Below, piece by piece: positions 5,101 through 60,008 of a stretch of 64,000 nucleotides of DNA; within the stretch, counting starts at the first letter, position 1; each line of letters opens with the position of its first letter. The position numbers and the translations under genes are program-made. Source of the stretch: Persicaria tinctoria. Lineage: Eukaryota; Streptophyta; Magnoliopsida; Caryophyllales; Polygonaceae. The notes below the pieces were generated by a model, which had not been told where the DNA came from, did no database searches, and was given only the letters and a program-made list of their open reading frames with translations. The stretch is from NCBI GenBank assembly GCA_037127255.1, contig JBANSL010000009.1, positions 3,592,001 through 3,656,000 of the forward strand, in the 5' to 3' direction.

Positions 5101-5113
5101 TTTTATATATAAC

Positions 5114-23090: not shown

Positions 23091-23799
23091 ACCAATGCCG
23101 AGAAACATCTGTCAAAACACAAAAAGTACCAAACAATTGAGTAAAAAACAAACAAGAAACTCATTTTATTATCCGCGGACGAAGGTCCAAGAAACTACTC
23201 ATAAGAAATCGTCCGCGGATGAAAAAGAACAGATACGTGGCAATCATGCACACTTCCCACGAGTATAACACGTGTTGAAAGCGGAGCACCACGTGGCGTA
23301 ACATGCAGGAGAGTCGAAAATCTATAAATAGGGAAAAACTTCATAAGATAAAGGACTTTTTGGAAACGAAGGGAAGAGAGGAAGGCGGATTAAGATATAG
23401 TGAAACCAGGAGAAAGAAGGGAAAGAAGCAATTACACGCGAAAGAGAAGTCTGATAAAAAGAAGAGAATACACATCATGTACAAATGTCAATCTCCGCGG
23501 ATGTAAAACCTGTCTACTTTTAGTGTAGAATTCTATTAAGAGTTGACGTTAATAAACCTCAAGACATTCCACGACGACAGGTATAGTAAGCTTGGTTTCC
23601 AAATTGTCTAGGAAAAACTCGATAAGGGAACCGCCATTCGCAGTTAAAACAAATTAACTTAACTTCCCGCGGCACAGGTTGGGTCGTGTCGATTCCTTCG
23701 ACGCGGGTCAGGTAAGTCCGTTGAGAAGGACGTACGTTTCATCAAGAAGGTTCCCGGGCCCCACATAAAAATGGTGGCCTTTCGTTTCGCGGTTTTTCA
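23091..23799 (+). repeat. 5' LTR
   Basis: Starts ACCAATGCCGAGAAAC and ends GCGGTTTTTCA directly before the primer site. The end is a normal CA, but the start is not TG: identity with the 3' LTR begins at ACCAATG. It contains four CCGCGG palindromes. A 68-codon frame inside (23303-23506) recurs in the 3' LTR and is not a gene. Confidence 0.9.
23234..23331 (+). promoter_or_regulatory. LTR promoter: ACGT-core boxes and TATA box
   Basis: Three ACGT-core (G-box/ABRE-like) sites lie in a row: TACGTGGC (23234), ACACGTGT (23268) and CCACGTGGC (23289). A good TATA box, CTATAAATAG, follows at 23322. This is a compact promoter of the kind driven by bZIP or bHLH factors. The 3' LTR carries the same sites at about 42091-42188. 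Stress or ABA responsiveness is only inferred from the boxes. Confidence 0.65.
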
Positions 23800-23820: not shown

Positions 23821-23931
23821 CCCTCACACTAAGGGGTTTCCTATTTTAAATTTGATTAAAATCTACAAATGTAAGTTTTCAGATATCTAACATCGAACTT
23901 TCTGACAAGACAGATTCACAATAGCAAGGAA

Positions 23932-26175
23932 ATGAGTGATAACCAAAATCACCAGACTCAGGACATGAGTCAAGGAGATCACCAAGATCAAGAAGCCTCG
24001 AGCATGTATGTCTCGCTGACGCCCCCAACTAATCCTAATGCTGAGATGGGGGAACAGAACCTTGAAACTCCTCCTCAACCCTACGGTAATCAGTATGGAT
24101 TAGACGGAGGATTCATTCCACAAAACTTCTGGTATTATGAAGCGCGACACGAACAGCCAAATCCTTTTCAACAGGAGCAGGCTCAATACTTTTACTATGA
24201 TCAATGGGGACAGAATCCGCGTCAGCAAGGAAATTATAGGCCAGAAGGACAGTATGGGAATTTTGATCGTCGTAACACTGTTTATGAAAATCCCAGTAAC
24301 TGGAACTATGGTTTTCAGAACCAAGAAGTGCCATACCAGACGTGGCAAGATGATCACTATCACAGAGAAGGTAAACATCGACGCGGAGATAGGTCAACAG
24401 ATGTTTCGACCTCAACAAAATCTGACTCTATAGAAAAAAGAAACGAGAATGCACCAACCGGATTCCCATCAGTGTTTACTCAAGAGATCTGCTCCGCGAC
24501 AGTACCGAAGCGATGGAGAGATGTGAACCTAATGAAGTATGACGGAACAACTGATCCTGAAGATCATCTATGTCATTTTGCTACCGCAATGGGGATTAAC
24601 GAATACAATGACGCCATGTTATGCAGAACGTTCCCTTCAACCTTAACAAAGATCGCACTAACTTGGTTCACCAACCTTCCCAAAGGGTCCGTAACCAATT
24701 TCGCCCAAATGTCTCACATCTTCACTTCTTATTTTGGAAGTGCGCGGTCGAGAAAGAAGACTATGCTCGATTTGAATTCCATCAGGCAAGGAGCTGGGGA
24801 ATCTTTGGGGCATTTTTTCACTCGTTTCACCAGTATGGTAGTCCAAATCCCTAACTTCAATCACGAATCAGCTATTATCATACTTATGGGCAATTTGGCT
24901 GAAGGGGATTTTAAGACATACTTATTTCGAAAAAAGCCCACAAGTTATGATGACTTAAGAGAGCGAGTCTCTAGACAGATTGAAGCAGAGGAAGCAGCCG
25001 CGTCCAGCTCAAAGGCGAATACTGGGAATTCAGGACCTTTTGGGAAATTAGTAGGAAAATTCAGAAAGGAGAAAGCCAAGCCTCCTAGACATCATTCGGA
25101 GGCAGTAGATTTCCGTCCCCACCGTGATGAAGTGCATATGAACTTAGAAAGGGGTCAAGGATCTTGTCGTAGGGAAGATCCTCCGCGTTCTCATCATCCA
25201 CGAGAGAATCAATACAGAAATCACGATGTGAGATCTCCACCTAGGAGGGAGAACCGACCCGATCACAGACCTCGATGGGGGGACCGAGGTCCTAGGTTTG
25301 ATGAATCTCGGAATCCACAAGAACGATTTGATAGGCAACAAGATCCGCGCAGAGAACTCCCATTCCATAACCGGGGAAGAGGGAGAGGAAGAAGAGGACG
25401 CGGAGGAAGATACAACAACACACCAGTAGCTCAGAGATCTGTCAATCAAAGAGAAGCTCGAAAGACAGAAGAAGGTCAGATACCCGAACCAGAAGGCTTC
25501 ATCAACACCCTTGCAGGAGGTTTGTCTATGGCCGGATCTAGCAGGCAGGAAAAAGGAAACTATGAGAGGGAAGGAAGACAGCCACCATCCGCGTCAAGTA
25601 GAAGAATTTCTCTCACACAGCATGAGAACATTTCCTTCACTCCGAAAGACGCGGAGGAAATAAGAATGCCACATTCAGACCCACTGGTCATTCATGTACA
25701 GATAGCTGCCAAAACCGTCAAAAGAGTATTTATTGATACCGGGTCCTCTGTGGACATCCTATCGTGGGAAGCATTTTCTCAAATGGGAATCTCCGCGGCT
25801 TCGTTGAAACCATATCCAGGAACGCTGATCACATTTTCAGGAGGAGAAGTACAGGTGGCTGGCACAATCGAGCTTACAGTGGTTCTGGGGACGCCTCCTA
25901 ACAGGCGTATAGAAAATATTGTGTTCACAGTAGTGAAGATTCCCACCGTGTATAATGCTTTGTTGGGCCGTGTCTCGCTTTACAAATTCCAAATGGTAGT
26001 TTCAATCTACCACTTTTTGGGAAAATTCCCGTTACCAGGTGGAGGAATAGGTGAGGTCCGCGGACAACAACCAGAAAGCAGAAGCTGTTACTTAACCTCC
26101 ATCAAGAAAAATAAAGAAGTAATGTGTGTAAGTGAGAATTACGAATCCGAGGTCGGAGACAGTGACTCAGCCTAG
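23932..26175 (+). CDS. gag-protease polyprotein
   Basis: 747 codons. Residues 1-160 are Gln/Asn/Tyr-rich. The plant gag domain spans about 195-365 (LMKYDGTTDPEDHL, then LTWFTNLP and LGHFFTRF). A basic Arg/Gly tract with RGRGRRGRGG lies near 480-495, and I see no CCHC zinc knuckle. A retropepsin-like aspartic protease follows with its active site FIDTGSSVDI near residue 600. The frame ends in TAG (26173-26175), but the downstream pol frame (from 26218) is in exactly the same phase. Either readthrough joins them or a CAG became TAG. The start is the first ATG after the 110-base leader. The product builds and matures the virus-like particle. Confidence 0.9.
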   Translation: MSDNQNHQTQDMSQGDHQDQEASSMYVSLTPPTNPNAEMGEQNLETPPQPYGNQYGLDGGFIPQNFWYYEARHEQPNPFQQEQAQYFYYDQWGQNPRQQGNYRPEGQYGNFDRRNTVYENPSNWNYGFQNQEVPYQTWQDDHYHREGKHRRGDRSTDVSTSTKSDSIEKRNENAPTGFPSVFTQEICSATVPKRWRDVNLMKYDGTTDPEDHLCHFATAMGINEYNDAMLCRTFPSTLTKIALTWFTNLPKGSVTNFAQMSHIFTSYFGSARSRKKTMLDLNSIRQGAGESLGHFFTRFTSMVVQIPNFNHESAIIILMGNLAEGDFKTYLFRKKPTSYDDLRERVSRQIEAEEAAASSSKANTGNSGPFGKLVGKFRKEKAKPPRHHSEAVDFRPHRDEVHMNLERGQGSCRREDPPRSHHPRENQYRNHDVRSPPRRENRPDHRPRWGDRGPRFDESRNPQERFDRQQDPRRELPFHNRGRGRGRRGRGGRYNNTPVAQRSVNQREARKTEEGQIPEPEGFINTLAGGLSMAGSSRQEKGNYEREGRQPPSASSRRISLTQHENISFTPKDAEEIRMPHSDPLVIHVQIAAKTVKRVFIDTGSSVDILSWEAFSQMGISAASLKPYPGTLITFSGGEVQVAGTIELTVVLGTPPNRRIENIVFTVVKIPTVYNALLGRVSLYKFQMVVSIYHFLGKFPLPGGGIGEVRGQQPESRSCYLTSIKKNKEVMCVSENYESEVGDSDSA

Positions 26176-29100
26176 TTCTCAGAAGCCGAACTGGAGGTTC
26201 GGCCGACAGAAGTCAAGATGTCTACCGCGGATGAGAAAATTGCATTTACACCCTTTTCTAACTCAAAGGAAAAAGTCTATCTGGGACAAGCATTGGAAGT
26301 AAGAGAAAGAGTTAGAGTTTTAGAAATCATAGCAAGGTCAAGAGACATCTTTGCATGGAGTCCTCGAGACCTGCTAGGTGTCCCGTCTGCAATAGCTTTA
26401 CATACTTTAAGGATTCGCCCGGGAACGAAACCTGTAGTGCAGAAGAGGAGAAAAATGGCACCAGAAAAAGCTGCCGCGGCAAGAGAAGAAACTAATAAAC
26501 TTTTAGAAGCTGGCTTCATAGAGGAAGTGGAAGATTCTGAATGGCTTTCAAACGTAGTCCTGGTGAAGAAATCTAATGGGAAATGGAGGATGTGTATCGA
26601 TTTTACTGATCTCAACAAGTCCTGCCCAAAAGATAGTTACCCACTTCCATCCATAGATGAACTTGTCGATGGAATCGCGGGAAACAAAGTCCTTAGTTTT
26701 CTTGATGCATACTCAGGATACAATCAGATAAACCTGGATCCTTCAGACAAAAAAGCTACGACTTTCATCACCAGCCAGGGAATTTTTTGTTATCGCATCA
26801 TGCCTTTTGGACTCAGAAATGCGGGAGCAACGTTTCAGAGAACAGTCGATCGGATCTTTCGTAATCAAATTGGCAGGAATGTTTCGATTTACGTTGATGA
26901 TATTGTCGTCAAAAGTGAAAGAGCAAAAGATCACGCTGCGGATTTACAGGAGACTTTTGATTCCCTTCGAAGAGGAGGTTTGAATTTAAATGCAGAAAAA
27001 TGTGTCTTTGGGGTTGATTCTGGGAAATTCCTTGGTTTTATGGTTAGCCATAGAGGAATTGATGTTAATCCTGAAAAAATTACATCAATTCAAAATCTTC
27101 AACCACCGTGGACGATCAAAGAATTACAATCTCTAAATGGAGCAGTGAACTATTTGAGCCGTTTTTGCTCCTACCTGGCGGATAAGTCGTTGCCTTTCTT
27201 TCTCTACTCAAGAAGAAGGGACCGATACGGTGGACTCCTGAATTGCAAGATGCCTTTGAAAATTTAAAACTTTTTCTAACATCGCTTCCTACCCTTCACC
27301 AACCTGAGAAACAAGAAGTCCTCCATCTGTATTTATCTGTAAAAAATGTCACCATCAGTGCAGTTTTGACGCGAGAAGAAAAGTTCCCGGTCTACTACAT
27401 CAGTCGTGTTCTTCAGGACGCGGAGACAAGATACGAACCAGTGGAGAAAATGATCCTGTGCTTGACATTCGCGGCAAGAAGGCTAAGGCCTTATTTTCAA
27501 GATCATCCAGTCCGAGTAATGACAGATTTGCCGATGCGACAGATCCTCCACTCGCCATGTTTATCAGGGAGAATGATGAAATGGGCAGTCGAACTCACAG
27601 AATTTGAGATAGAGTACACTCCGCGGAAAGCGACCCTCGCTCAATCTCTGACTGATTTCATCAGTGAGACAAGTTTCGAATCAAGCTCTCCAATGGAAAG
27701 AAGTGAGTGGACACTCAGGGTAGATGGTGCAGCTAACAAAGATGGATGCGGAGCAGGGGTTACACTAACAGCACCTGATGAACGGCAGTACAACTATGCC
27801 TACAAGTTGGATTTCCAAACTACCAACAATGAAGCCGAATATGAAGCCTTGCTAGCTGGACTGGAAATAGCTTTGATTAAGGGTGCTAGGCAAGTATCAG
27901 TTTTCACCGATTCCGAAGTTGTGACACGGCAAATATCAGAGGAATATGAAGCCAGGACTGGATTAATGCCAGATTACCAGAGAAAAGCGCAGACACTTTC
28001 TAAAGCTTTTTTGAGTTTTTGTGTAACAACTGTTCCTAGGGGTGACAACCAGCAAGCGGACGCGTTGGCACGTTTGGGAGCTGTAATGCCAGAGGAAGTA
28101 GGAAAAGAGGTGATTCTGGAAAGGATGAGCAACCGAAGACTCATCCAAGAAATCTATCAGGTACAAGAAATGGAGGTGGAAGACTGGAGAGCACCAATCG
28201 CGGATTATTTAGGTAAAGGTACCCTACCTGAAGACAGAACCGCTGCTAAGAAGATACTCGTTAAGTCCTCTCGATTCACTATCAGGGAAGGAAAACTGTA
28301 CAAGAGAGGGTACTGCTTACCTGATCTGTTGTGCGTATCGTCAGAAAAAGGAAGTCAAGTAGTGGAGGAACTACATGATGGGGTTTGCTCGCATCACCAA
28401 GGATGGAGAGCTATTGTGGCCAAAGCAATCAGGCTGGGATATTATTGGCCTACTATGAGACATGATGTCCAAAGTTATATACAGAAATGTGACGCGTGCC
28501 AAAGGTTTGGAAATCTAAATCACCGTCCTTCTGAGACAATGAAGAGTATAGCCGGAGCTTGCCCTTTTTCTGTTTGGGGAATGGACATTCTCGGTCCATT
28601 TCCCACTGCTCCTGGACAGTTGAGGTATGTTTTGGTCCTAGTTGATTACTTCACCAAATGGGTGGAAGCCGAAGCAATGGGATTGATAACCGCGGAAAAG
28701 GTGAGAAAGTTTTTATGGAGAAATGTTGTTTGCCGCTTCGGAGTACCCGAAACAATAATTACAGACCATGGGCCACAATTCGATTGCGAAAGGATCAGAG
28801 ATTTCTGTGTGGGGCTGGGCATCAATCTTAAGATCTCCTCCGTAGCTCACCCTTAGACGAATGGGCAGGCGGAAACAACCAACCGACAGCTGTTACATGG
28901 GATACGAAAGAAACTCGACAACACAGCAAAAGGGCGTTGGGCAGAACTCTTACCATTAGTGCTCTGGTCTTACCGCACATCAACAAAGACTCCCACTGGA
29001 GAAACCCCATTCTCTTTAGTCTTTGGTATGGACGCGGTCATCCCAGCAGAGAGATTGATACCATCAGCATGGGTAATGACCTATGACCCGGATATCAATG

Positions 29101-29405
29101 ATGAAGCACTGGAATTTGAGCTCCATCTCATAGAAGAACGCAGAATGACAGCTGCTTTGAAGGAGCTAGAATACAAGAGGAGGCTTTCCAAGTATCAAGA
29201 TAAACGAATTTCCCCGCGGCATCTTAAAGAAGGAGATCTAGTGCTGCGACAAGCTACGTCGGGGGGGAAGCTAGATCCCAACTGGGAAGGACCGTATATA
29301 ATTATCAAGGAAGTCCAAAAAGGCGCATATAAACTCAGCACTCCCGAAGGAATCATCTTGAACAAGACTTGGAACGCTGACAATCTAAAAAAGTATTATG
29401 TGTAA
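26176..29405 (+). pseudogene. pol: reverse transcriptase, two RNase H domains, integrase
   Basis: The reverse transcriptase has RMCIDFTDLNK, MPFGLRNAGATFQR and the catalytic YVDD at about 26890. A shift near 27200 moves the frame to 27243-28856, which holds a first RNase H (from 27243, active-site residues poor) and a second RNase H (27718-28080) with D, E, D, D in VDGAA, NNEAEYEAL, FTDSE and GDNQQADAL. The integrase has the H-H-C-C zinc region (HHQGW...CDACQRF) and D, D, E in WGMDIL, ITDHGPQF and NGQAE. A TAG replaces the conserved Gln of HPQTNGQ at 28854-28856; the frame then resumes to 29405. Dual RNase H is a Tat-lineage trait. This copy cannot make full-length pol. Confidence 0.9.
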
Positions 29406-29500
29406 CCACCAAAACAGCTAAGTAAATATAAAACTAAGTCGCACCCGCAAAAATCAAATAAAGCGGTTAGAGGGCGCTTTCTATGATGATTCGCACTTAA

Positions 29501-30436
29501 GATGATACTTCATATAAAGTCCTAAGACGCTGGAGCTTATATCCGCGTCAGGCCTCTGATCGAATCCGCATTCTCAGAGATGATACTTCGTATAAAGTCC
29601 TAAGACGCTGGAGCTTATATCCGTGTCAGGCCTCTAATCGAATCCGCATTCTCAGAGATGATACTTCGTATAAAGTCCTAAGACGCTCGAGCTTATATCC
29701 GCGTCAGGCCTCTGATTGAATCCGCATTCTCAGAGATGATACTTCGTATAAAGTCCTAAGACGCTGGAGCATATATCTGCGTCAGGCCTCTGATCGAATC
29801 CGCATTCTCAGAGATGATACTTCGTATAAAGTCCTAAGACGCTGGAGCTTATATCCGCGTCAGGCCTCTGATCGAATCCGCATTCTCAGAGATGATACTT
29901 CGTATAAAGTCCTAAGACGCTGGAGCTTATATCCGCGTCAGGCCTCTAATCGAATCCGCATTCTCAGAGATGATACTTCGTATAAAGTCCTAAGACGCTG
30001 GAGCTTATATCCGCGTCAGGCCTCAGATCGAATCCGCATTCTCAGAGATGATACTTCGTATAAAGTCCTAAGACGCTGGAGCTTATATCCGCGTCAGGCC
30101 TCTGATCGAATCCGCATTCTCAGAGATGATACTTCGTATAAAGTCCTAAGACGCTGGAGCTTATATCCGCGTCAGGCCTCTGATCGAATCCGCATTCTCA
30201 GAGATGATACTTCGTATAAAGTCCTAAGACGCTGGAGCTTATATCCGCGTCAGGCCTCTGATCGAATCCGCATTCTCAGAGATGATACTTCGTATAAAGT
30301 CCTAAGACGCTGGAGCTTATATCCGCGTCAGGCCTCTGATCGAATCCGCATTCTCAGAGATGATACTTCGTATAAAATCCTAAGACGCTGGAGCATAGCT
30401 TCGCAACAGGTCTCTAATTAAATCCGTATTCTCAAA
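29501..30436 (+). repeat. 78-bp minisatellite, about 12 copies
   Basis: The block beginning GATGATACTTCGTATAAAGT recurs at 29501, 29579, 29657 and then every 78 bases to 30359. The units are almost identical, apart from the first and the last. Each carries TATCCGCGTCAGGCC, i.e. one TCCGCG motif per unit. It lies between the end of pol and the antisense genes. Tandem repeats in this 3' region are known for Tat/Ogre elements and are a proposed source of satellite DNA. It is not a CRISPR array: there are no unique spacers. Confidence 0.95.
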
Positions 30437-30627: not shown

Positions 30628-31139
30628 CTATATCCGCGGAAAACGCCCTGGGATAATACGAGTTCTGCCCTGACTTAAACGAAATCCATTTGAGGGGGGA
30701 CCATCTGACTCTGAAGAAGCCCACTCCGCGTCCACCTCATCTCCCACAGCATCCAAGATCTGGACGTCGAAGCGATTCTCACCTTTATGAACAAAGGTAA
30801 GAGAAGAACCAATATGGACGCTGTGAGTCTCAGCAAAGTCATTCCAACCACCCCTAAAAAATGGAACCCTATAGTCTCCACGCATAACCTCCACCGGGAA
30901 ATCACGAAGAATCCTAGTAGATAGGAGGATACTCCTAGGAAGACCTGGCCCAAGTCTATCTTCGAAGCATAAGGGCAAGGACTAACAAAAACAAACAGAT
31001 TTCAAGAGATGCTAGTAGATAAATTAACTTGATGAAAAATAAAATCAACAACAAATGAACTGACCAAACGAAGAAGTTGCTCAGGAAAGCTAATTCTCTC
31101 ACAGAATGACCAAGGTAAACCATCCATGGAAGGCATCAT
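30628..31139 (-). CDS. B3-domain protein A, antisense within the retrotransposon
   Basis: Two exons on the minus strand: 31139-31065 (25 codons, ending EQLLRL) and 30981-30628, with a GT donor (GTCAGT) and an AG acceptor, phase 0. The predicted protein of about 142 residues is one B3-like domain: a WSFCERI first strand, LPRSILLSTRILRDFPVEV, then FFRGGWNDFAETHSVHIGS, LTFVHKGENRFDVQILD. The GGW..F.....GS...F.H.G...F.V pattern is that of plant REM-type B3 DNA-binding domains. No other domain is present. Neighbours B and D share the same intron position. Product and function are inferred from the fold only. It appears intact. Confidence 0.75.
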
Positions 31140-31480
31140 GAAAGTACAGCAATGGGTTCAATGGTTTCTTTCCTACACTCTCCTTTTTATATAGCAAAGG
31201 TCTAGACATGTGTCGAAAAAACTGAAAATGTTGAACACATAAGTTTGAAATGTCACGTCATTGGGACAAAAACCACAGGTGCCATGCATAAGATAAATAG
31301 TAAATACTGTTACTGAATCTCTCAGAAATCCTGTGAGGTGAATATCATGACAATTAACCTCGAAAGACTTAACATGCATAAACAGAGAAATTCCCAGGAG
31401 TAGCTGCCGTGAGCTAGCTAAACCTCTACATCTCGAAACAGATGGAAGAGCCTAAAACCTTATTTAGAACTGAGAATTTT

Positions 31481-31907
31481 TTAAGAACCATTCGAAATTA
31501 TTTCAGGAGGGACCCGATTCTCGTTATTTCCCCCACGCGGATCAACCACCTGAACTTCGAATGGAGCCTCGCCCGTATGAGTGAAAATCATAGAAACCCC
31601 CTGCTCAAAGCCGTGTGAGTCTACAGAGTCCTTCCATCCGCGGCCAAAGTAAAGAAAACCACCGTTACACCGCTCTATGCAAACCATGAAGTTGTGCAAT
31701 AGATAGGATGATAGAAAAACGTGACCAGGGATAGCGTCGGCATATTCCTCCTCAAACCGAAGTGGAAGTAACTAAAAAGAATAAAGAAGTATTAGTTAAA
31801 AGTAAGTTTTCTAAAGATTTCCAACATAGTTAGCTCACCAAGTGTAGGAACTGTTCCGGGTAATCAATCGCTTGAAAGAAAGCCCAGCGGGTGGCACAAC
31901 CACCAAG
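31481..31907 (-). CDS. B3-domain protein B, antisense within the retrotransposon
   Basis: Exon 2 spans 31771-31481 (LLPLRFEEEYADAIPGHVFL, then FLYFGRGWKDSVDSHGFEQG, SMIFTHTGEAPFEVQVVD). Exon 1 ends at 31839 with WAFFQAIDYPEQFLHL and a GTGAGC donor, phase 0. The layout matches genes A and D. I could not find a good ATG for exon 1: the frame runs back past 31907 to a stop without Met. The start is therefore either upstream in another exon or lost. It is divergent to gene C, whose ATG is at 32104, so the roughly 200 bases between may be a two-way promoter. Confidence 0.65.
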
Positions 31908-32347
31908 GGCACGCGTCCTTCTTTTTCAAGACAAAATTACCAGGTGTTAAATCTTTTCCCAAGATCGACAAAAGTAAAAACTCAAAGGAAATTAAAATTA
32001 CTTATCGGTAAGAAGCGATGAAACCAAGGATAGGAAAACCTCACGAGACGAGTATAAAACTCACCCAAAACATCTAGGGGTAAAGAGCAAACTTAAAAAC
32101 AAAATGGATCCAAACTCACAGCCTAGGGCTTTCTACAGAGTCATTATGAGAGAAGAACAACTTCAAACCCTTCGCCTCCCTCTCACGTATGTCCTAATCG
32201 ACGAAGACGCTCATACTCAGGCTAGACTCTGGTCCCGCTCCAACCAGGAACACGAGGTGAAGGTAGACAAAGATGAAGATGGCCTTTTTTGGCTAACCCA
32301 AGGGTGGCGCGACTTCACACGAGCAAATCGAGTCAATGTCGGGTCCG

Positions 32348-33768
32348 TGATGAGCGGTTTTTAGTCGCCTAAACCGTATCAAAATAAATTCGAACCTACC
32401 TAACTAATGTAGTGTGGTAAGCACGAGTCGATCCCACAGAGAATCAAGTTATTCATGAGTTAAGCTTATTTACCAATTAGTATGAAACGGGGGTTTTGAT
32501 TGATTGAAATAAGAAAGAAAATAAAATAAACTATAAACAAATGATGCAAAATAATTTAGAAAGATCGCTCTACCTACAACTATCCACTTTATTTGGTTGA
32601 ATTGATATTGTAACTTCCTCTTGTCCTTTTAGGTTTCCTATGAATGCCCTTGTCCCGACCTAATATAGTTACTAGTCCAATCAGTCCTAGAAACCCTTAT
32701 TAATCGAACAGTCCCTAAAGAAGGATTTAACCCAATTGATAGCTTTAAGTTCAGAGATTAACCAAGGTATTTGCAGTCCCTAAAGAGGGATTTAACAACA
32801 CATCCAACTTCCTACCCATCCAATTAGTTCAATCAGCCCTAAAGAGATAAGTTTGCCACTTGGGTTAAGGTTCACAATCAGGAATCTACAAAACCCTAGC
32901 AATTGAATTGATTCTACCAAGTTGATCAGTCGAGATAGAATAAAACAATCAAACATTCAAGCACAAAGAAGTCGAAACATTCAATATAGGAAATAAGGAA
33001 CAAGATTCAGAAACTCACAAATCAATCCAAACAAAGCTTTAAATTGTAGATAGAACGGGAGAGTTTAGGTCTCCATAAAAGTAAAACAAAACATAATTAG
33101 GTTAAAGGTGGAACAATTTTAACCGGCCGTATGTCACGTTTTGGCCTCCACTGTTCGGCCTCAAACCAACATAATAGAAACTAGGGTTTTTTTCCTCAAA
33201 ACGGCGCGCCGACTGTCCGTGCGGCGGGCGCAGCATGAATACCGCCCCTGGCGGCGGGCGCAGCAAACTATGCGGCGGGCGCAGCAAACTATGCGGCGGG
33301 CGCAGCAAACCATGCGGCGGGCGCTGCATTGGGTTTTCCCGAAAATTCCGTCTCGAATTAGCTCTTGACGTCAACATGAAAGTTGTAGCTCTCTGAAAGA
33401 GCTTTCCAACGCATGGTCATAATAGTCGATCGGACAACCGAGGCCTCCAGAAAGTGCAAAACAAGTTCAGCATGTCTGGCGACAACTTCTGCAGACTTGT
33501 TCTTCGTTTAGGTTCGCTTCTTCTTCTCAGGACCTCTTGAGATCTTCATGTAAGCTTCTTCGATCAACTAGACATTCTCATCCAATGCGTTATCAACCCA
33601 TGTCTCCTCCTCGGATCCACGATTACCTGAAATAATCAATAAAAGCATGTAGATTTCGACTCCACCAACATAGAGAGCAAATATGCAAATTGCACTTAAT
33701 CCATGCATGATATGCATCTTAACTAAGCTAAATGCAACCTATTATGCCTACCTATATGCATGCTATCA
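32348..33768 (-). repeat. 3' LTR of the nested element
   Basis: 1421 bp, about 20 bp shorter than its partner because of a different number of 21-bp GC-rich units at 33221-33328. Otherwise only a handful of base differences. Confidence 0.9.
33221..33328. repeat. GCGGCGGGCGCAGCAAACYAT minisatellite (left LTR)
   Basis: About five units of 21 bases or variants, one extended by ATGAATACCGCCCCTG. The frames running through it are repeat artefacts. The copy in the other LTR (37038-37165) has a different number and order of units. Confidence 0.85.
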
Positions 33769-33784
33769 AACTCCCCCACACTTA
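33769..33784 (-). other. Polypurine tract of the nested element
   Basis: The minus strand reads AAGTGTGGGGGAGTT immediately before the 3' LTR start TGATAGC. A near copy (CTCCCCCACACTTAAAC on the plus strand) lies inside the element at about 35154-35171 and could act as a second initiation site. Confidence 0.75.
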
Positions 33785-35449
33785 AGCTTTTGCTTGTCCT
33801 CAAGCAATGAAAACTAAATATAGAATTAATCATCCCACAAATAAGATCTTCATGCTATAGTTTTAGAAAAGCAACCTCAAACAATAGGAGCCATGAATAA
33901 GAGAACAAATATCCTAGCAAATATATGAGCGATCCAATAGTAAAAGAAAATTTAGTCCAACCTCACCGGGATGATGTGTTTCACTCAAGCTCTCATGTGT
34001 TTAGGCTTTAAAGTTCAACTCTCAACTCAATCCAAAATGCTCCATACACCGTGAAAGTTATCACTTGCAAACAACATCATGAGGACTTTTATAAGGTTGT
34101 AATGGGGCTTTGGTAGGAACATAAGGCATGAGAAATATTTAGGCTTGTGGTGCTAAAAATCCGGGAAAAAGGAACAACAACCAACCAGAACAACACCGAA
34201 ACTTCCATACTCCACAAACCATTCCAATAACATAAACTCCAATACATAACAATAAACTCTTTGATTTCAATAGCCATACAACTCATGCAATTTTTTATTT
34301 GGATGATGACTTTTTTTTTCTTTTATGCTTACTTTTGCCCCTAAGTGAATTTTATCCTCCTTAGGTCCAAGCTTACTAGACTTTTACTCCTAAGTGAATT
34401 TTATCCTCCTTAGGCCCCTAGTAATAAGTCATCTCTATTATGCAAGAAGGGTTACCTTATTTTGGCTATGCCTCTCGCAATGCACAACCATACATACATC
34501 ATCTCCACTCAAAGCAACTCCAACATAAAGATTTTTCACCAATTCTCCTCCTAATTCCCGGATAGGGTCAGGCTAATCATTGGCTATGATATATTTTTGT
34601 GGAGCTATCAAAAAGAATAGGCTTTAAGGCTCAGATGGGCTTCAAGCACAGGATAATATGTAAGGTAGATAGGGTATAATATGGCTAAAGAAAACATGCC
34701 TCAATCATTTGAAATTCACAAGCAACAAACATGTGCAATACGGTATTGAAATAAGAAGCATATGGAGAGTATAATCACACAATAAAAGCAAAAGGGAAAT
34801 AATTATGAATAGTCCCTATAAGGCCAAAACAAACTCACAAGGGGTTATGTTATTGCTAGATTTCAATTTAACCTCAACTATGAACCATACTTGCTCAATT
34901 ATATTCTCAAACCATGCTCCAAAATCATTTTCAAGCAATTCAATCAAATCATGGGATTTATGCAATAAGCTCATAAAAATGAATTAGAGGACAAACCAAA
35001 CCAAGATGGGTATCGTTAATAACACTTAAATGCAATGCATGATATTTTTTTTTTCAAATGCAGTATATGAATAAAAATAAATATGACAACGTAAATAAAC
35101 ATGATAACATAAGTAAACATGATATGCAAATTCTATCTATATGCAATGCAATCCCTCCCCCACACTTAAACCTTTCATTGTCCTCAATGAAACATAAAAG
35201 ACAACAAAAATAAAAACATAGAGAAAGAGATTAATGAAATACTCACAATGTGGTGGAAGGGGCGATATAGGTCGGATCTGAGCATTGCGCGCGGCGGGTT
35301 AAAGAAAACTAGCTAACTAGGAATTGAAATAACTAAAACTTACCTCGGGTTGCCTCCCGAGAAGCGCCTTTCTTTAATGTCATTGGCTTGACTTATTCTC
35401 AATCTCAAGACCTTATTTCTCAGACATTGTCAAGGCCCTCAGTAGCCTA
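33785..35449. other. Non-coding interior of the nested element
   Basis: AT-rich spacer replacing protease and pol. It contains a tandem pair of about 52 bp with TAAGTGAATTTTATCCTCCT (about 34338-34420) and the second purine-tract-like site near 35160. No coding frame is convincing. Confidence 0.6.
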
Positions 35450-36034
35450 TCATATTCCTGTGCACATATCTTCTTCGAGAGCCACATAAATCGGCTCGGT
35501 AAATGATTCCTTGATAGGCAAGTCAAGGATGATTTCTTCAGATGAAATAGGAGCCAAAACACATGGATCCTCATGCGTGCACTCATGAGACTCCATGTAA
35601 GGGAGCATTGGGCTCTCATCGATCAAACCATCATTGTTTGTGTCTTGGCGTTCATCAACTTGAGGAATAAAGTATTGCTCTACTACCAACTCACTCACCG
35701 GTTGATTAAGTTGGTTCAATTGTTCCTCAATTCGCTCCATCCTTTTAAGCACCTGCTCCAACATAACCTGGCGTGTGAAAGCTTCTTCCTGCTCCACCTG
35801 GTGACCCATGTAACAGAAAAAATCCCACATCTCTGATAAGTTGAAACTCGCAAAGCCTCCGTTACTCATAGACTCGGCAAGTTCTTTGGTCTCAGGAGTC
35901 ATGCCCTCAAGTACACAAATAACCATATCTTGCAAACTATCTTGGTAACCCCTTGCATAACGGGCATCCAATAAATTATGCACTCTTGTGAAATAATGGT
36001 GAAAATTTTCGCCTTGATACTGCATTAATCTCAT
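35450..36034 (-). CDS. gag-like protein of the nested element
   Basis: 194 codons starting 110 bases after the primer site. MRLMQYQGENFHHYFTRVHNLL resembles the Q...E....Y..RF..L block of Athila gags; a Met-rich helix (LEQVLKRMERIEEQLNQLN) and an acidic tail follow. It lacks the N-terminal gag half and any zinc knuckle, so it is a shortened gag. Whether it is translated is unknown, and the family assignment is by context plus weak similarity. Confidence 0.55.
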   Translation of the reverse strand: MRLMQYQGENFHHYFTRVHNLLDARYARGYQDSLQDMVICVLEGMTPETKELAESMSNGGFASFNLSEMWDFFCYMGHQVEQEEAFTRQVMLEQVLKRMERIEEQLNQLNQPVSELVVEQYFIPQVDERQDTNNDGLIDESPMLPYMESHECTHEDPCVLAPISSEEIILDLPIKESFTEPIYVALEEDMCTGI

Positions 36035-36143
36035 CTTAAGATGTTAGTAGTAAGGGTGTCGTGAACCGTAAGATAGGTTCACAACAGAGTTAATTTATAT
36101 ACAATAATCGGCAAACACACAAAACAAAGAAATAAACTTTGAT

Positions 36144-36161
36144 TCCCCGGCAACGGCGCCA
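36144..36161 (-). other. Primer-binding site of the nested element (tRNA-Asp)
   Basis: TCCCCGGCAACGGCGCCA on the plus strand is an exact 18-base match to the 3' end of plant tRNA-Asp, three bases from the LTR end. Confidence 0.9.
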
Positions 36162-36164
36162 ATT

Positions 36165-37605
36165 TGATGAGCGGTTTTTAGTCGCCTATACCGTATCAAA
36201 ATAAATTCGAACCTACCTAACTAATGTAGTGTGGTAAGCACGAGTCGATCCCACAGAGAATCAAGTTATTCCTAAGTTAAGCTTATTTACCAATTAGTAT
36301 GAAACGGGGGTTTTGATTGATTGAAATAAGAAAGAAAATAAAATAAACTATAAACAAATGATGCAAAATAATTTAGAAAGATCGCTCTACCTACAACTAT
36401 CCACTTTATTTGGTTGAATTGATATTGTAACTTCCTCTTGTCCTTTTAGGTTTCCTATGAATGCCCTTGTCCCGACCTAATATAGTTACTAGTCCAATCA
36501 GTCCTAGAAACCCTTATTAATCGAACAGTCCCTAAAGAAGGATTTAACCCAATTGATAGCTTTAAGTTCAGAGATTAACCAAGGTATTTGCAGTCCCTAA
36601 AGAGGGATTTAACAACACATCCAACTTCCTACCCATCCAATTAGTTCAATCAGCCCTAAAGAGATAAGTTTGCCACTTGGGTTAAGATTCACAATCAGGA
36701 ATCTACAAAACCCTAGCAATTGAATTGATTCTACCAAGTTGATCAGTCGAGATAGAATAAAACAATCAAACATTCAAGCACAAAGAAGTCGAAACATTCA
36801 ATATAGGAAATAAGGAACAAGATTCAGAAACTCACAAATCAATCCAAACAAAGCTTTAAATTGTAGATAGAACGGGAGAGTTTAGGTCTCCATAAAAGTA
36901 AAACAAAACATAATTAGGTTAAAGGTGGAACAATTTTAACCGGCCGTATGTCACGTTTTGGCCTCCACTGTTCGGCCTCAAACCAACATAATAGAAACTA
37001 GGGTTTTTTTCCTCAAAACGGCGCGCCGACTGTCCGTGCGGCGGGCGCCGCAAAGTTGCGGTGGGCGCAGCAAACCATGCGGCGGGCGCAGCATGAATAC
37101 CGCCCCTGGCGGCGGGCGCAGCAAACTATGCGGCGGGCGCAGCAAACCATGCGGCGGGCGCTGCATTGGGTTTTCCCGAAAATTCCGTCTCGAATTAGCT
37201 CTCGACGTCAACATGAAAGTTGTAGCTCTCTGAAAGAGCTTTCCAACGCATGGTCATAATAGTCGATCGGACAACCGAGGCCTCCAGAAAGTGCAAAACA
37301 AGTTCAGCATGTCTGGCGACAACTTCTGCAGACTTGTTCTTCGTTTAGGTTCGCTTCTTCTTCTCAGGACCTCTTGAGATCTTCATGTAAGCTTCTTCGA
37401 TCAACTAGACATTCTCATCCAATGCGTTATCAACCCATGTCTCCTCCTCGGATCCACGATTACCTGAAATAATCAATAAAAGCATGTAGATTTCGACTCC
37501 CCCAACATAGAGAGCAAATATGCAAATTGCACTTAATCCATGCATGATATGCATCTTAACTAAGCTAAATGCAACCTATTATGCCTACCTATATGCATGC
37601 TATCA
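36165..37605 (-). repeat. 5' LTR of the nested element
   Basis: 1441 bp, directly flanked by the target duplication GTCCG at 37606-37610. It contains the 21-bp GC-rich minisatellite at 37038-37165. Confidence 0.9.
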
Positions 37606-37949
37606 GTCCGCGCTGATCTTCACCTACATGGGAGATTCCATCTTTGAAGTCGACGTTGTCAGCCCAGATAGCGAAGAGAATGGAGAGATAGGCCGTCCTT
37701 GATCTCCCAATAAATTCTCCGCGTCAACTATGTAACGATCTTAAAGGGATCCAAACCCTACGAAGGGTTTCTGTACGCATTTTCCATTATTAATAATAAT
37801 AAAGATCCCTTCCTTTTATTGTAGTTTGATAAAATATGTGAAAATGGTGAGGAAACTGTGAATTCCTTTTTTATTTTATTTTGATCCACTAAAAAACTTA
37901 TATTAAGTAATAAGCTCGAAGATCTACAAGAGGACTACGCGGAAATAAC

Positions 37950-38392
37950 TCAATTAGAACCACACGACGAAGAGACCGAGTCCGAAGTAGATTTAGGTTC
38001 ATCTACGACTTCACGACGCGGACAAACTTGAAAGGAGACATTGCCCTTATGAAAAAACATCATCGCACTTCCTATCCCCAAGTGATGAAGCATGAGGAAT
38101 TCATCCCAACCATTATCAATTTGAAAAAGACCGTTTTCACTCCATGATACGGCTACTGGGAAATCGCGGACGAGATAGGACGAAAGAAAGGCCCATCGAG
38201 GCGGGAGAGGTCCATACTCAGCCTCAAATTGGGGAGGCATAACCTACATATGAAGCAAGTCGATGCTTAAGTTGAAATAACTCAAACTTCATTTAAAGCA
38301 AAGATTAAAAAGATACTCACTAGCCGAGAAAGTTGCTCCACATTGTCAATCTTTTGAAAAAAGGCCCACGGATTAAAATTTCCCGAGGACAT
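37950..38392 (-). CDS. B3-domain protein D, antisense within the retrotransposon
   Basis: Exon 1 is 38392-38321 (24 codons, NPWAFFQKIDNVEQLSRL, donor GTGAGT). Exon 2 is 38243-37950 (VMPPQFEAEYGPLPPRWAFL, then NGLFQIDNGWDEFLMLHHLG, MFFHKGNVSFQV), phase 0. The protein is about 121 residues and a single REM-like B3 domain. The intron falls after the same EQL.RL motif as in genes A and B, so the three are duplicates of one ancestor. Its 3' end faces that of gene C. The reading frame is intact. Confidence 0.75.
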
Positions 38393-38733: not shown

Positions 38734-41423
38734 TCAAGGAGAATTTGCCTTCTCATTTTCTTCCTCCGCTTCATCATCGTCATCACCTTCGGAATAAGAG
38801 TCTTCCGCGTCCATCTCCTCCTTCGAAAGGCCCCAGTCAGCACTCTCCAAACTAGGCTCGAATTTTTCCAAAGGGACACCTGGGTTGTTTGATGAACGCG
38901 TCACACTCTGGTTGATCCCTGCAACCATTCCCTTCCGAAAATAACTAAAACATTTGTCTTTTAGAATACTGGAGCCCTTTGGAGTCTGGAGACATGCCTT
39001 TGCCGCGGAAGATAGGAAAGAGAGACCAGCCTCAGTTTTGACCCATTCAGAGGACAGATGCTTCAAACCCTCAGGACTCTGAAGCCATTGTAAAGCCACA
39101 TCCTGATCCGTTCGCGCCTTTACGATGTCAAGCTCATGTTTGGTCATAGATAGCTCATCTCGAAGAATTGAAAAATCTTCCTCCATCTTGTCTATGATAG
39201 CCTTCTTAGCTTGGAGAAGCTTCTGTGAGTCACCTTCAGAAGCCTCTAGCTCTTTGACGCGGGAGGCAGCAGAGTTTGAAGAAATTTTCAAGTCATCGTA
39301 TTTCTTCTGTAAAACAGTCATGGCCTCCTTCAGATTTTGCACTTCCTCATGAAGATCAGCCGATCTCTTTTTAAACTTCTCCACTGAAGCTGGATCCCCA
39401 ACTGTATTCCCTAATATGCGGAGCTTGTGTTTCAATTTTTTGATTTCTTCATCCTTCTTCCTGAGGTCTTCTTCTCCGCAGACCATGCGTCTCTCAACGT
39501 CCGGCTGGATCACCCTTAACTATCAAATCGAAGTAAGAATAAGAGGATCTGAAAATGGAACGCGTCAGGAAAGTAAAGAAAGTTAATGAGAAACAACAAA
39601 AAGATCTAAACTTACCCACTGAATTAAACGATCAAAGTAAGCAGAGAGAGAGAGACAGAGTCCATGCGTTTAACATATCCTTGCTCTGGGAGGCAACGCT
39701 TCTTGGTTGGAAAAGCAAGACCTTGCAAGTCAACTGGATCGAAACCAGGCATAGGAAACTCACGAAGCGTAGCCACACCCTCCAGAAAAAGCTCCTTTTT
39801 ATCTAAAGCGGTTGGCTCAGCAGCCATGGCAAATTTCCTTTTTTTGGATCTCGAAGATTCTGGCGCGGACGGACCAGTGCGTTCCTCTCTAAGGGCAGGA
39901 ACCAATGACGAGGATTCAATTAAGGCGCCAGTATCATCCGCGACACTCACATCAACAATTGGTGTCACTTCTAAAACAGGAAGAGGAGCAGGAGGATCAT
40001 TGGCTACCAAACTCGATTTCTTTTTCTTTCCCGATTTGGCTTTATGCCGCTTCAAAAGCGCATCCAAATCCATTTTATCTGTAAAACACAATGCACTTCC
40101 TAATAAATTATCCATTTTAAGAAAAGTAAAATATGAAAGTGCAAATTATTAAACAAAGAAGCCACCTAGTCGCGGATGAGGCATGCTCAAGCCAGCCATC
40201 TCAAGACGAAACGCGGATAACATTTTATCCCATGGAAATCTAGGAATATGAGAAAAGGACGACTTGAACTGAGAAAGATTGGAAATTTTTGGTTTTGAAA
40301 CAGAGCAAAAAGGCCCTGGGACCGTTCGACAACCAAAGCCCTGTCCGGATTTGTCGCGGACCAAAAACCACTTATATTTCCAGTTTGGTTTACTAGACAA
40401 CCTCTCCATATATTTACAACTCGAGTTGCATTGATAAAATCTTGTGTCTTGAGTCCCCTTTTTCAGAGAGAAAATGCTGAGCATCAACTTCAACGAGGGG
40501 GCAACACCAATCTCCTTACATCTCATAACAAAACTTGTAAAAAACATCCAACCATTGGGAACAATTTGAGCAGGACTCAGGTTATACTCCTCCAAAAACT
40601 TTGAGAAAAGGGGATGAAGAGGGAGCCGGAAACCTTGAGATAGACTGGCTGCATATACAACTAAGCAATCCTCGTAAGCGTCCAGACATCCACCTCCTTC
40701 CTCAGGAAGACATAATTCGACACCCGCTGGCCATGGAAAGACTTGCGAAAGAGCATCAAGGTCTCCAAGATTCAATAGGATAGTGCAACCCCTCAATTTA
40801 CTCACTGGGGACCTCCATGGATGAATCCTTTCGAGCACAACTGGTGGACGGCCGGTTGGAGGAGGAAGAGGTTTGAAATCCCCCCAAAAGAGACAAGAGT
40901 CAAGATCCTTCAAATCGTACGCAGGGGTATCCAAATCACTCAGATTCTCCTTAGAACGGATTACCTTAGGAGCTTCCGCTAAACCAATAGGAGGAAGCTC
41001 ATAAGGAATCCAAACTTCCTCTGACTCTTGATTCGCCGACTGAGACGCGGACGATATCCCCGCGTCCACGGAAGAACTAGCACCCGAATTATCCGCATCC
41101 GTTGTATTCTCACCATCCACGCATCCCTTCGAAGAAGAAGAAACTGAGTAAGGTGAAGAATAGTAATCAGGGTCAGAACGCTTCCGACGCCTTCTCACCT
41201 TGATTGGGCTACCATTAGGTCCGATTCGATCCGGGGTAGACGCGGATGTAGAAGAAGATGACTCTGACGAGGAATCATCATAGGAAGAAGAAGAACTCCC
41301 TGAGGAGATAGAAAGCGGCTCCGGAGACGGACGCGCTTGAGAAGATGAAACAGCACCACCTCTCCATCCTTCATCCCTCTCAAAATCTTCTAGTGAGTCA
41401 CCCTCCTTGTTGAGATTAGCCAT
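38734..41423 (-). CDS. Three-exon antisense gene: PF04195-like domain plus coiled coil
   Basis: Exon 1 (41423-40166) has a Ser-rich acidic start, an RRRRKR basic patch, and the region FRLPLHPLFSKFLEEYNLSP, AQIVPNGWMFF that is the core of the plant 'putative gypsy-type transposon' family (PF04195). Exon 2 (40078-39616) is Lys/Ser-rich with KRHKAKSGKKKK. Exon 3 (39519-38734) is a long coiled coil (EEDLRKKDEEIKKLKHKL...) with an acidic tail. Splice sites fit: CTAG|GTGGC, TTTTACAG|AT, TGG|GTAAGT and GATAG|TT. The end of exon 2 is out of frame by one CT unit in a CT repeat (about 39640-39660), so this copy may be frameshifted. Antisense extra ORFs are known in Tat elements; their role is unknown. 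Confidence 0.7.
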
Positions 41424-41947: not shown

Positions 41948-42656
41948 ACCAATGCCGAGAAACATCTGTCAAAACACAAAAAGTACCAAACAATTGAGTA
42001 AAAAACAAACAAGAAACTCATTTTATTATCCGCGGACGAAGGTCCAAGAAACTACTCATAAGAAATCGTCCGTGGATGAAAAAGAACAGATACGTGGCAA
42101 TCATGCCCACTTCCCACGAGTATAACACGTGTTGAAAGCGGAGCACCACGTGGCGTAACATGCAGGAGAGTCGAAAATCTATAAATAGGGAAAAACTTCA
42201 TAAGATAAAGGACTTTTTGGAAACGAAGGGAAGAGAGGAAGGCGGATTAAGATATAGTGAAACCAGGAGAAAGAAGGGAAAGAAGCAATTACACGCGAAA
42301 GAGAAGTCTGATAAAAAAAAGAGAATACACATCATGTACAAATGTCAATCTCCGCGGATGTAAAACCTGTCTACTTTTAGTGTAGAATTCTATTAAGAGT
42401 TGACGTTAATAAACCTCAAGACATTCAACGACGACAGGTATAGTAAGCTTGGTTTCCAAATTGTCTAGGAAAAACTCGATAAGGGAACCGCCATTCGCAG
42501 TTAAAACAAATTAACTTAACTTCCCGCGGCACAGGTTGGGCCGCGTCGATTCCTTCGACGCAGGTCAGGTAAGTCCGTTGAGAAGGACGTACGTTTCATC
42601 AAGAAGGTTCCCGGGCCCCACATAAAAATGGTGGCCTTTCGTTTCGCGGTTTTTCA
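41948..42656 (+). repeat. 3' LTR of the 19.6 kb element
   Basis: Matches 23091-23799 with seven base differences by eye; for example one CCGCGG has become CCGTGG near 42069. It ends TTTTTCA and is followed by ATGCAT, the repeat of the left target sequence. Confidence 0.9.
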
Positions 42657-56963: not shown

Positions 56964-57479
56964 TATAAAAGTCATCCTGTAAACTAAGTGAAAGACCCTC
57001 CCTCCATTATATTTGTGTTTGCTCTCTCTCTCTCTCACATCACCATCATCACCATCACATATCTCTTTCCATTGGAAGGCGATTGAAGAACACTTCACTG
57101 CATACCTACCGCTTCCAATTACAGAATTGAACCTAGACGAAGCCCTTGAATTGATTCATAAATCAAATTGAGATCGAGGAGTCAAGCAACGAACACGACT
57201 CCGTAGCTCAATTCTCTAAACTCCAGGCCTTTCAATTTCAGGATACACCTGTACGTGTGGGTGCTTCCAAACCCTTTTTCTTGCTTCCATATATTATCCA
57301 AAGCCAAAGGTATTTTTTCTTATAACTCAAAATCCCCAATTCAACTTCTCTTAAATTTAATCCTCCTCGATCCCTAATTAAACAAGCCCTTTTCTTTGAT
57401 GCTGGGAATAGATCGACAAGTTATTAATTGGTCCACCGGACTTTAACCCCCCGTTGATGATGAAGAAATCAACGGCAAT
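56964..57479 (+). promoter_or_regulatory. TATA box and 5' leader of the BEL1-like gene
   Basis: TATAAAA at 56964-56970 follows a GA-rich stretch. About 510 bases of CT/CA-rich leader precede the ATG at 57480. Several GT/AG pairs within 57090-57440 would allow a leader intron, but I cannot choose one. The Mutator-like element ends only about 120 bases upstream of the TATA box. Confidence 0.5.
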
Positions 57480-60008
57480 ATGGGCATAGCAACGCCATCA
57501 AAGAAACACTTCAATTCGATTCCGATTCCGATTCCGATCCACACAGGTAATTCTATGTCCGAGGGTTACCACCAAAGCCACCAGGGAATCTTCTCTTTTC
57601 CGTCGCCGTCAAATGGGTTCGACGTCAGAGCTACCGATCAGCAAGCTGCAGGGTTACCCCCGTCGGTTTACGAGTCGGCAGCGACCGGGACGCTGTCGGA
57701 GATGTTCAATTTCGCCGGTGCAGCCCCGCCGGAGTTACATCCGCAGATCTCGGAGTCTGCCGCTGCAGCCATGCAGCTTTTCCTCACTGACCCGCAGCCG
57801 AGGTCACCGACACCGTCACCTCACTACCAACACCACCAGCCGCCGCCCCCTCCGTCCACCCACATGTTGCTTCCCGGCCAGGGCTTTCACGCCATCTCCG
57901 GCCATCAGCCCCAATTCACATGGATGCCGGACGCCGAAGGGAGCGGTGGCGGAATTGTCGGAGGACAAGGCTTGTCGTTGTCGCTCTCCTCAACCTTGGA
58001 GGCCGCCAAGGCCGAGGAGGAGCTGAGGATCGGCGGTGGCGGAATGATGTTCTTTGGTAACCAAGAAGTGCTTGGAGGTGGAGGAGCTTCTTCAAGTACT
58101 TCATTCAAGAATTTTGGAGTACAACAACAACACACCCAAAATCAAAATGTGATGCAATTACAAGGCTATGGCATAGGCCACCACCTTTCGGGTGATATCG
58201 GATTCGGGTCATCTCTAGCCACTCCTGCGTCAGGAATGGGGATGATTAATGTTTTGAGGAATTCAAAGTACGCCAGGCTGGCGCAGGAGTTGCTGGAGGA
58301 GTTCTGTAGTGTCGGACGAGGACAACTGAAGAAGAATAAGTTGTCTCGGAACAACTCAACCGCCACCGCGAGCACGAGCGGTGGCGGGGCGGGCCCCTCG
58401 TCGGCGACGGATTCGACCAAGGAGCTTCCACCGCTATCAGCGGCTGATAGGATGGAACATCAAAGGAGGAAGGTCAAACTCATAGCAATGCTTGATGAGG
58501 CATGTATCCCAACATTTTTCTCCTTAGCGCTCTCTCTCTCTCTCTCTCTCTTGCCTCTTCTCCCTCTATCAAGAGTCAAGACCAAATCTTCTCTTTTTAA
58601 ATTACTTAATTAATTACCATGTTTGATTACTTTAGAAAACCACTCACACAATTATAAAATTCAAAGCTTAAGCCCCAATTAATAATTAATAATTAATCTT
58701 TGATCATCTATGTGAAGTATTTAATCCTATAGATTGATGCCGGCTGGTTGAATTGTCTTTAAAGTATACATTATTTTTGAATTGGATTATAACTCAAATT
58801 ATACCATTGAGCTTGAATTGATTACACATTTTCTCTTTCCCTTCTCATTTTTACCATTAATACTTTAATTATATAATTATAAATATATATGAATGCAAGA
58901 AATCAAAGCAACAAAATGATACAATATAATTAATCACTTTTTGAAACCCTTGTGTGAAGTTTTGGTCATTGATTATGTATGCTTTTGTTGACTTGTGATG
59001 GGTTAATCATGCACCTTGTTTGTTTCTAAATGCTTTAAAAACATACTTAAAAATGGAATTTGTTTCCCTAAACGCCACTATTAAATAGCTAGCATATATA
59101 TCTTTTGGTGTATATGAATGATTATTTGATTCCCCTTTCATGATATGAAAGATCCTCTCATGAAATCTTGTAGCTAGGGTTAATTACAATACAATATCTC
59201 AAATTAAGAATTGGACTAGCTGGTGTAATGGTATTACTAATTACTAATATATAAATATAATCAACATTAATTAATTAGTAGATTCTAGCTAGTGTGGATC
59301 GACATTCTAATTGCACCATCTCTTTCTCTCTTTAATTTTGTCTCTTCCAGCATTGTCAGTTGAGTGAAAACAACCCTTCTACTTCCCAGATCTTGCTTAG
59401 AAATCAAACTAGAATCGGTCGATATCGATCTGACCTAACAACCACCATATATATATATGTGTGTGTGTACGGACATAAATATATATATATTGTTCTTGTA
59501 CTAATCTAGCTAATTAAGAACATTGTTTAGCAGTACTATAGTGATGGATATATGCTTAATTAGATTTATGTATAGTATTGCAGGTGGAGAGAAGGTACAG
59601 CCAATATTGTGAGCAAATGCAGATGGTGGTGAACTCATATGATCTAGTGATGGGGTTTGGAGCAGCAATCCCATACACGGCCCTCGCACAGAAGGCCATG
59701 TCTAGGCACTTCAGGTGTCTGAAGGACGCGATACAAGAGCAATTGAAGCGAAGCTGCGAGGTTCTAGGAGACAAGGATGTGACGGGGAGCACAGGGATAA
59801 CCAAAGGGGAGACACCGAGGCTGAAGATGTTGGAGCAGAGCCTGAGGCAGCAAAGAGCCTTCCACCAAATGGGGATGATGGATCAGGAGGCTTGGAGGCC
59901 TCAAAGAGGCTTGCCTGAGCGTTCAGTCAACATCTTGAGGGCATGGCTGTTTGAGCACTTCCTTCATCCGTACGTTCCTTTCACTTCTACTTCTAGCTCG
60001 CTCGATCA

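Follow-up and report, generated by a model that had tools for sequence, protein, structure and literature searches.

What are four genes for B3-type DNA-binding domains doing inside a retrotransposon? The question is raised by a stretch of 64,000 nucleotides of the Persicaria tinctoria genome (GCA_037127255.1, contig JBANSL010000009.1, positions 3,592,001 to 3,656,000), referred to here as the window, in which a Ty3/gypsy retrotransposon with long terminal repeats (LTRs), judged by its domains to be of the Tat/Retand layout, carries four such genes, A to D, between pol and the 3' LTR. A preliminary description, made from the letters of the window, had proposed this arrangement and suspected selection on the genes, and on both points it has held up. 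The genes are under strong purifying selection as proteins, with their splice sites mostly kept, and they belong to the element family and are no one-off capture. A short motif that is dense along the element suggests, less firmly, what they may be for.

The B3 genes and the element that carries them

The four genes are arranged as follows.

30628..31139, minus strand: B3 gene A; exon 1 31139-31065, intron 31064-30982, exon 2 30981-30628
31481..31907, minus strand: B3 gene B; exon 1 to 31839, intron 31838-31772, exon 2 31771-31481
32104..37702, plus strand: B3 gene C, intronless, sense; split by a nested insertion at 32348-37605
37950..38392, minus strand: B3 gene D; exon 1 38392-38321, intron 38320-38244, exon 2 38243-37950

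A, B and D are thus antisense to the genomic RNA of the element and C is sense. In the window copy A and D are open, as had been claimed of them, and exon 1 of B is without an in-frame ATG, which 32 of 35 aligned copies have 16 codons upstream. The uninterrupted form of C was read from other extant copies only, never through the nested insertion.

When the pieces of the genes were compared with the Pfam B3 profile (PF02362), matches were found for exon 2 of A (3.9e-6), exon 2 of B (1.8e-5), the 5' piece of C (9.6e-6) and exon 2 of D (0.0093), each of them scoring under the Pfam gathering score for B3, and none for the 3' piece of C (33 residues). The whole proteins, for which A, B and D were joined across their predicted introns and C was read from an extant copy free of the interruption, match B3 in four cases out of four (best E value 3.3e-8), protein A lying just under the gathering score (29.4 against 30.1), and each has one B3 domain. 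Their only other matches are two weak ones (E values 0.088 and 0.17), neither of them VANC-like. A profile of the four proteins searched against solved structures found 1yel, the Arabidopsis REM protein At1g16640, at 1.1e-7, the next structures being ARF1 (0.44) and VRN1 (1.1), so that by sequence comparison the nearest solved relative is a REM-type B3 domain; a PDB search with exon 2 of D alone returned nothing relevant. Chance profile matches as the source of the B3 calls are excluded by the matches in four genes together with the match to the REM structure. Searches of protein databases returned one match and then four, all of them short proteins on contigs of 531-798 bases and all close to A, C or D.

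An intron lies inside the B3 domain of A, B and D, in phase 0, with exon 2 starting SLP, LLP and VMP, respectively, and C has none, as the preliminary description had stated for this sense-strand gene. The same place and phase are seen in two host B3 exons (L082 and L083), which start right after AG, in phase 0, with AVP and HIP, and which were called REM-like by eye, without a tree. Across the genome, 80 among the 150 B3 matches listed start at profile position 16-18, the pattern that an exon border at that point would produce, some of them being transposon-borne fragments, and the exon-intron structure of REM B3 domains is described as conserved (PMC2688026). Because the place and phase of their intron equal those of the host exons, A, B and D appear to descend from an intron-bearing REM-type gene. 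The shared intron had earlier been read as showing duplication within the element; its position and phase stand, and the conclusion does not, since an intron that is also found at the host position is by itself no proof of duplication there.

The difference in orientation may also explain which genes have kept their introns. Being antisense to the genomic RNA, the introns of A, B and D could not be spliced from it, and we infer that this is how they have persisted through reverse transcription, whereas C is probably intronless because its sense orientation allowed the intron to be spliced from the genomic RNA before reverse transcription. This contrast would provide a simple rule for how a retroelement keeps introns in its own genes.

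The remaining parts of the element, with its open reading frames (ORFs) and the ratio of nonsynonymous to synonymous substitution rates (dN/dS) where one applies, are these.

23091..23799, plus strand: 5' LTR, 709 bp, direct repeat with 41948-42656, flank ATGCAT
23875..26175, plus strand: gag ORF (PF03732, 9.1e-11)
26176..29405, plus strand: pol, with reverse transcriptase (RT), RNase H, an additional RNase H (RVT_3) and integrase, from domain matches and separate ORFs
29422..30420, plus strand: tandem array of 78-bp units after pol, with 9 CGCG motif sites
32348..37605, minus strand: nested LTR-type insertion in gene C, outside the system, with terminal repeats and the 5-bp repeat GTCCG
38734..39513, minus strand: coiled-coil ORF of 259 residues, weak coiled-coil matches only; dN/dS 0.15 (10 sequences)
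39624..40115, minus strand: ORF of 163 residues, no Pfam match
40149..41423, minus strand: TRP28 (Transposase_28) gene, 424 residues (PF04195, 6.9e-12)
41948..42656, plus strand: 3' LTR, direct repeat with 23091-23799

The genes had been described as lying inside matched LTRs, and the two repeats do align with 7 mismatches across 709 bp, with ATGCAT on the outer side of each. The pol reading frame is broken in the window copy into separate ORFs, one of which preserves the order RT_RNaseH (46-140), RVT_3 (184-296) and integrase (from 389). An additional RNase H between RNase H and integrase, as in Ogre/Retand elements, an antisense TRP28 gene (PF04195) between pol and the 3' LTR, a tandem array after pol, a long region between pol and the 3' LTR and an antisense coiled-coil ORF are all features that the element has in common with Retand (PMC11963269, PMC6317226), in which 97% of recent clusters have antisense TRP28 ORFs and about half have tandem arrays (PMC11963269).

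It differs from Retand elements, as they are described in passages of PMC11963269, in its four B3 genes. The term 'B3 domain' is absent from PMC11963269, PMC7264820 and PMC13317346, and among the matches listed from the open-access PMC literature, outside which subscription papers mostly fall, none described a Retand element with B3 genes. The earlier remark that a B3 gene family is not known from Tat elements agrees with this for Retand within that literature and needs qualifying for LTR retrotransposons at large, since one sentence in a screen of 121 genomes reports a B3 domain in LTR-retrotransposon consensus sequences of Aegilops tauschii (PMC9289625). The two cases are alike in having a B3 domain in LTR retrotransposons that recurs within one species, and differ in that the passage on Aegilops tauschii says nothing of lineage or gene structure and includes neither a survey of copies nor an analysis of selection (PMC9289625). 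A further likeness is to gene23 of the maize element Grande, which lies antisense between pol and the 3' LTR and has a promoter of its own; for gene23 no known domain is reported in the passages on it (PMC7264820), whereas the B3 genes here number four, of which three are antisense and C is sense. The function of antisense accessory genes in Tat/Retand elements is described as unknown (PMC7264820, PMC11963269), and for the family of the present four both the fold and a cellular role are known, and for one member of it a binding site as well.

Selection and spread across the family

The genome searched comprises 1.68 Gb in 221 contigs, and pieces of A, B, C and D each gave at least 150 matches, with 3,523 to 5,933 first-pass candidates. 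To obtain a sample independent of B3 content, 40 LTR matches were taken, which form 16 pairs (32 matches) and 8 singles. Among the matches listed, two or more B3 genes lie within each of the 16 pairs, and 12 of these pairs contain the full set of four, which runs A-B-C-D starting at the pol side, a gene missing from these counts being one missing among the matches listed, with no real absence implied. Both checks named in the preliminary description, for a B3 match by profile and for these genes in other copies, came out in its favour, and the copies share the gene order too. Near six of the eight single LTR matches there are B3 genes and near two there are none, again among the matches listed and as judged by eye; the latter two may represent solo LTRs.

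Two features of the distribution may be mentioned separately. At G000:C8:66677068-66682500 an LTR match lies about 1.5 kb from a gene A of the same sense, at the place expected for gag-pol, and this is possibly an internally deleted element retaining B3 genes. Only 37 of the 150 gene A matches listed, counted by eye, are on contigs C11-C20, which seem paired with C1-C10; one set has most of the youngest copies, which would fit differing recent histories of the two.

For the analysis of selection, extant copies from 38 elements were put into a separate alignment for each gene (A 27, B 35, C 36, D 34), the numbers being unequal because genes that run off the fetched locus or match under 90% of the gene were left out before alignment. 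C was found in 36 copies and is open in 30, the six dropped from its main alignment being the interrupted window copy and five that are not open. Mean dN/dS is 0.14 for A (27 copies), 0.17 for B (35), 0.07 for C (30 open copies) and 0.06 for D (34), and it is 1.06-2.83 in the two wrong frames; when B and C were measured again at 20 loci chosen on A and D, the values were 0.14 (20 copies) and 0.05 (16 open of 20), respectively. Diversity at codon positions 1, 2 and 3 is 0.044, 0.039 and 0.158 in A, 0.052, 0.051 and 0.155 in B, 0.021, 0.019 and 0.138 in C, and 0.025, 0.021 and 0.162 in D, with intron diversity per site of 0.107 in A, 0.111 in B and 0.150 in D. The donor GT is kept in 25/27 copies of A, 35/35 of B and 32/34 of D, and the acceptor AG in every copy of the three genes (27/27, 35/35 and 34/34). 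Copies that are both open and spliceable number 22/27 for A, 25/35 for B (a start codon not being demanded) and 26/34 for D, and C is open at 111 residues in 30 of the 35 copies besides that of the window, shares that are biased upward because the copies come from best-scoring lists. A TATAWA box precedes the start of A by 49-55 nt in 26 of 27 copies, and that of C by 40-52 nt in all 36. On these patterns A to D look like selected protein genes, with A and C having what look like their own promoters. The antisense coiled-coil ORF of the element (38734-39513) is likewise under purifying selection (dN/dS 0.15, 10 sequences).

A dense motif and its candidate readers

The motif CGCGGA/CGCGTC occurs at 118 sites over five stretches of the element, with 17.5 expected. 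In word counts on both strands of 12,602 bp of the element, a length that leaves aside the tandem array, the nested insertion and the 3' LTR, CGCGGA was found 44 times (2.4 expected), CCGCGTC 18 times (0.43) and ACGCGGA 17 times (0.56). Counted as CGCG[G/T] on either strand, observed and expected sites are 12 and 1.7 in the 5' LTR, 43 and 6.0 in gag-pol, 18 and 3.5 in the tandem array, 10 and 1.5 from A to C, and 35 and 4.8 from the end of C to TRP28; outside the element they are 1 and 4.8 in the nested insertion, 12 and 7.6 in the left flank, and 4 and 6.2 in the right flank. Seven fetched copies have 36-47 sites each (5.1-6.8 expected), and five host-gene or Mutator-like loci have 3-12 (5.2-8.3 expected). 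A coding artefact is excluded as the source of the motif, as its sites within ORFs are spread over the three frames (8, 15 and 24), where they encode different peptides, and as it is present in the LTR. The density of CGCG in three stretches is 5.2, 3.1 and 5.7 sites per kb; random placements as even as the observed spacing make up a share of 0.033 in the first stretch, and of 0.56 and 0.10 in the others, which are not clearly even.

CpGs decay fast in methylated DNA, and the retention of those within the motif therefore fits a use for it. Between copies, CpGs inside CGCG are kept more often than other CpGs from A to C (0.895 and 0.690, 21 sequences), from the end of C to D (0.848 and 0.700, 21 sequences) and in the LTR (0.965 and 0.927, 9 sequences). 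The diverged copy L081, which is 73% identical over its longest aligned stretch, retains 24 of 34 CpGs inside CGCG and 34 of 84 others.

These observations lead to a mechanism that we propose tentatively, giving it a little less than an even chance: a Retand-type family would have taken one or more REM-type B3 genes from its host, and the proteins of the four that it now carries would read the motif and keep the family transcribable. The proteins would be made from antisense transcripts (A, B and D) and from an internal sense transcript (C), and would recognise CGCGGA on the family's copies by binding, possibly jointly with TRP28. There they might coat the element, or take the place of the host REM proteins by which Pol IV and DNA methylation are brought in, and the family would stay transcribable in the manner in which VANC proteins act for VANDAL transposons. 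From the proteins and the motif together we infer a self-recognition or anti-silencing system, in which both binding and function are putative. That host REM-type factors have been turned into such a kit in its full form, with all four proteins reading CGCGGA throughout the element, its coding genes included, is a stronger proposal and we regard it as doubtful.

Two known systems stand behind this proposal. VANC21 binds YAGTATTAY, which occurs at high density on VANDAL21, frequently within tandem repeats, and it causes methylation to be lost there (PMC5735166). The present element likewise joins proteins of its own to a dense short motif, partly in a tandem array, and it would work like the VANC/VANDAL pair without being of that family, to which A to D do not belong, since they match B3 instead. 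VANDALs are DNA transposons and their proteins have DUF1985/DUF287, whereas A to D, apart from the two weak matches, match B3 only, and binding and demethylation have been shown for VANC (PMC5735166), whereas for the B3 element both are putative. The second system is that of the host. In Arabidopsis, REM proteins and GDE1 recruit CLSY3/4-Pol IV and thereby direct DNA methylation, and REM8 binds repeats of AAGCGGAT, which has GCGGA in common with the element motif (PMC12270911). The factors VDD, VAL, REM12, REM13 and REM8, which position Pol IV, resemble A to D in their REM-type B3 domain; they differ in being host genes, in that the four reading motif 1 have two B3 domains each, and in promoting methylation (PMC12270911). 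If the proposed mechanism is true, anti-silencing encoded by a transposable element, shown for VANDAL DNA transposons, would be joined to the REM-Pol IV pathway.

Several observations weigh against the proposal that the B3 proteins read the motif. Its likeness to the REM8 site is only partial: in the element stretches AAGCGGAT as such does not occur (0 sites, 0.36 expected), and AGCGGA is not enriched (5 sites, 4.3 expected). The sites of VANC21 are mainly non-coding, whereas the present motif is dense in gag-pol and the accessory ORFs as well (PMC5735166). Fewer sites are found in L081, which has 16 with 5.4 expected, 16 also being the maximum of 300 simulations. Retention is uneven, site 30727 being kept in 7/20 copies and site 38407 in 6/20, and part of it may stem from protein selection because some sites lie in conserved codons. 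A relative free of B3 genes and carrying TRP28 was sought as a control and none was found, L081 having C and D. TRP28 or a host factor could also be the reader.

The first of these candidates is the TRP28 protein of the element, with the B3 genes serving otherwise, for example at their own promoters or in integration. TRP28 is predicted to bind DNA and is present in nearly all recent Retand clusters (PMC11963269), and it is found both in the window element and in L081; against this, GCGGA is common to the motif and to a known REM B3 site (PMC12270911), and four selected B3 genes need a use of their own, so that we consider TRP28 an unlikely reader. The B3 proteins might instead be single-domain decoys that pair with the host REM proteins recruiting Pol IV, leaving the motif to another protein. 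Each REM protein that recognises CLSY3/4 motif 1 has a pair of B3 domains, with dimerisation predicted for one and DNA binding for the other (PMC12270911), and the element proteins have one each, which is what such decoys might look like; the pairing is a supposition, however, and decoys alone leave the motif unexplained, and we hold this to be distinctly improbable.

The motif could also have nothing to do with the proteins of the element. The CAMTA box, V-CGCG-B, would cover ACGCGG and CCGCGG, and the CGCG sites might then be host CAMTA-type (CGCG-box) sites that make the element stress-responsive. A promoter needs few such sites, whereas these extend beyond the LTR across gag-pol and the accessory ORFs and occur in all three frames, and a CAMTA origin seems to us very unlikely. 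Lastly, the transduction of genes by LTR elements is known (PMC7264820), and the B3 genes might have been functionless passengers of an accidental capture; with dN/dS at 0.06-0.17, splice sites mostly kept while introns diverge by 0.11-0.15 per site, and B3 genes in 16/16 LTR pairs examined, selection and the copy survey rule this out, and it is scarcely credible. For the preferred mechanism, in which the B3 proteins are the readers, the element offers a dense candidate target, so that the question of the reader can be put to in vitro binding.

Neighbouring and unrelated sequences

The nested insertion that splits C in the window copy (32348-37605) has TG..CA ends, long terminal repeats and GTCCG as a 5-bp repeat on both sides, and its strand was judged by eye from a tRNA-Asp-like primer site near 36143-36163. 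Its 197-residue ORF has no Pfam match, and the insertion may for this reason be non-autonomous. In L081, positions 3400-5000, TACTCGA is over-represented (10 sites, with 0.5 expected over the whole locus) and may be the motif of a different element.

A second B3 sequence appears, from its surroundings, to be carried by an unrelated transposon. At L079:1830-2039 (G000:C5:67111429) and L080:1970-2179 (C6:16908269) there is a REM-like exon of 70 residues (PF02362, 1.5e-14 and 4.1e-15, respectively), which recurs with an open frame of 85 residues on many chromosomes, and in L079 its distance from a MULE (Mutator-like element) transposase domain (PF10551, 1.1e-14) is about 1.5 kb. These recurrent 85-residue matches were excluded as part of the Retand system, being near Mutator-like sequence in the two loci fetched. 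Within the window itself, the ORF at 57447-58613 has a POX domain (PF07526, 1e-14), as in BELL-type homeodomain genes, and is likely a host gene near the element.

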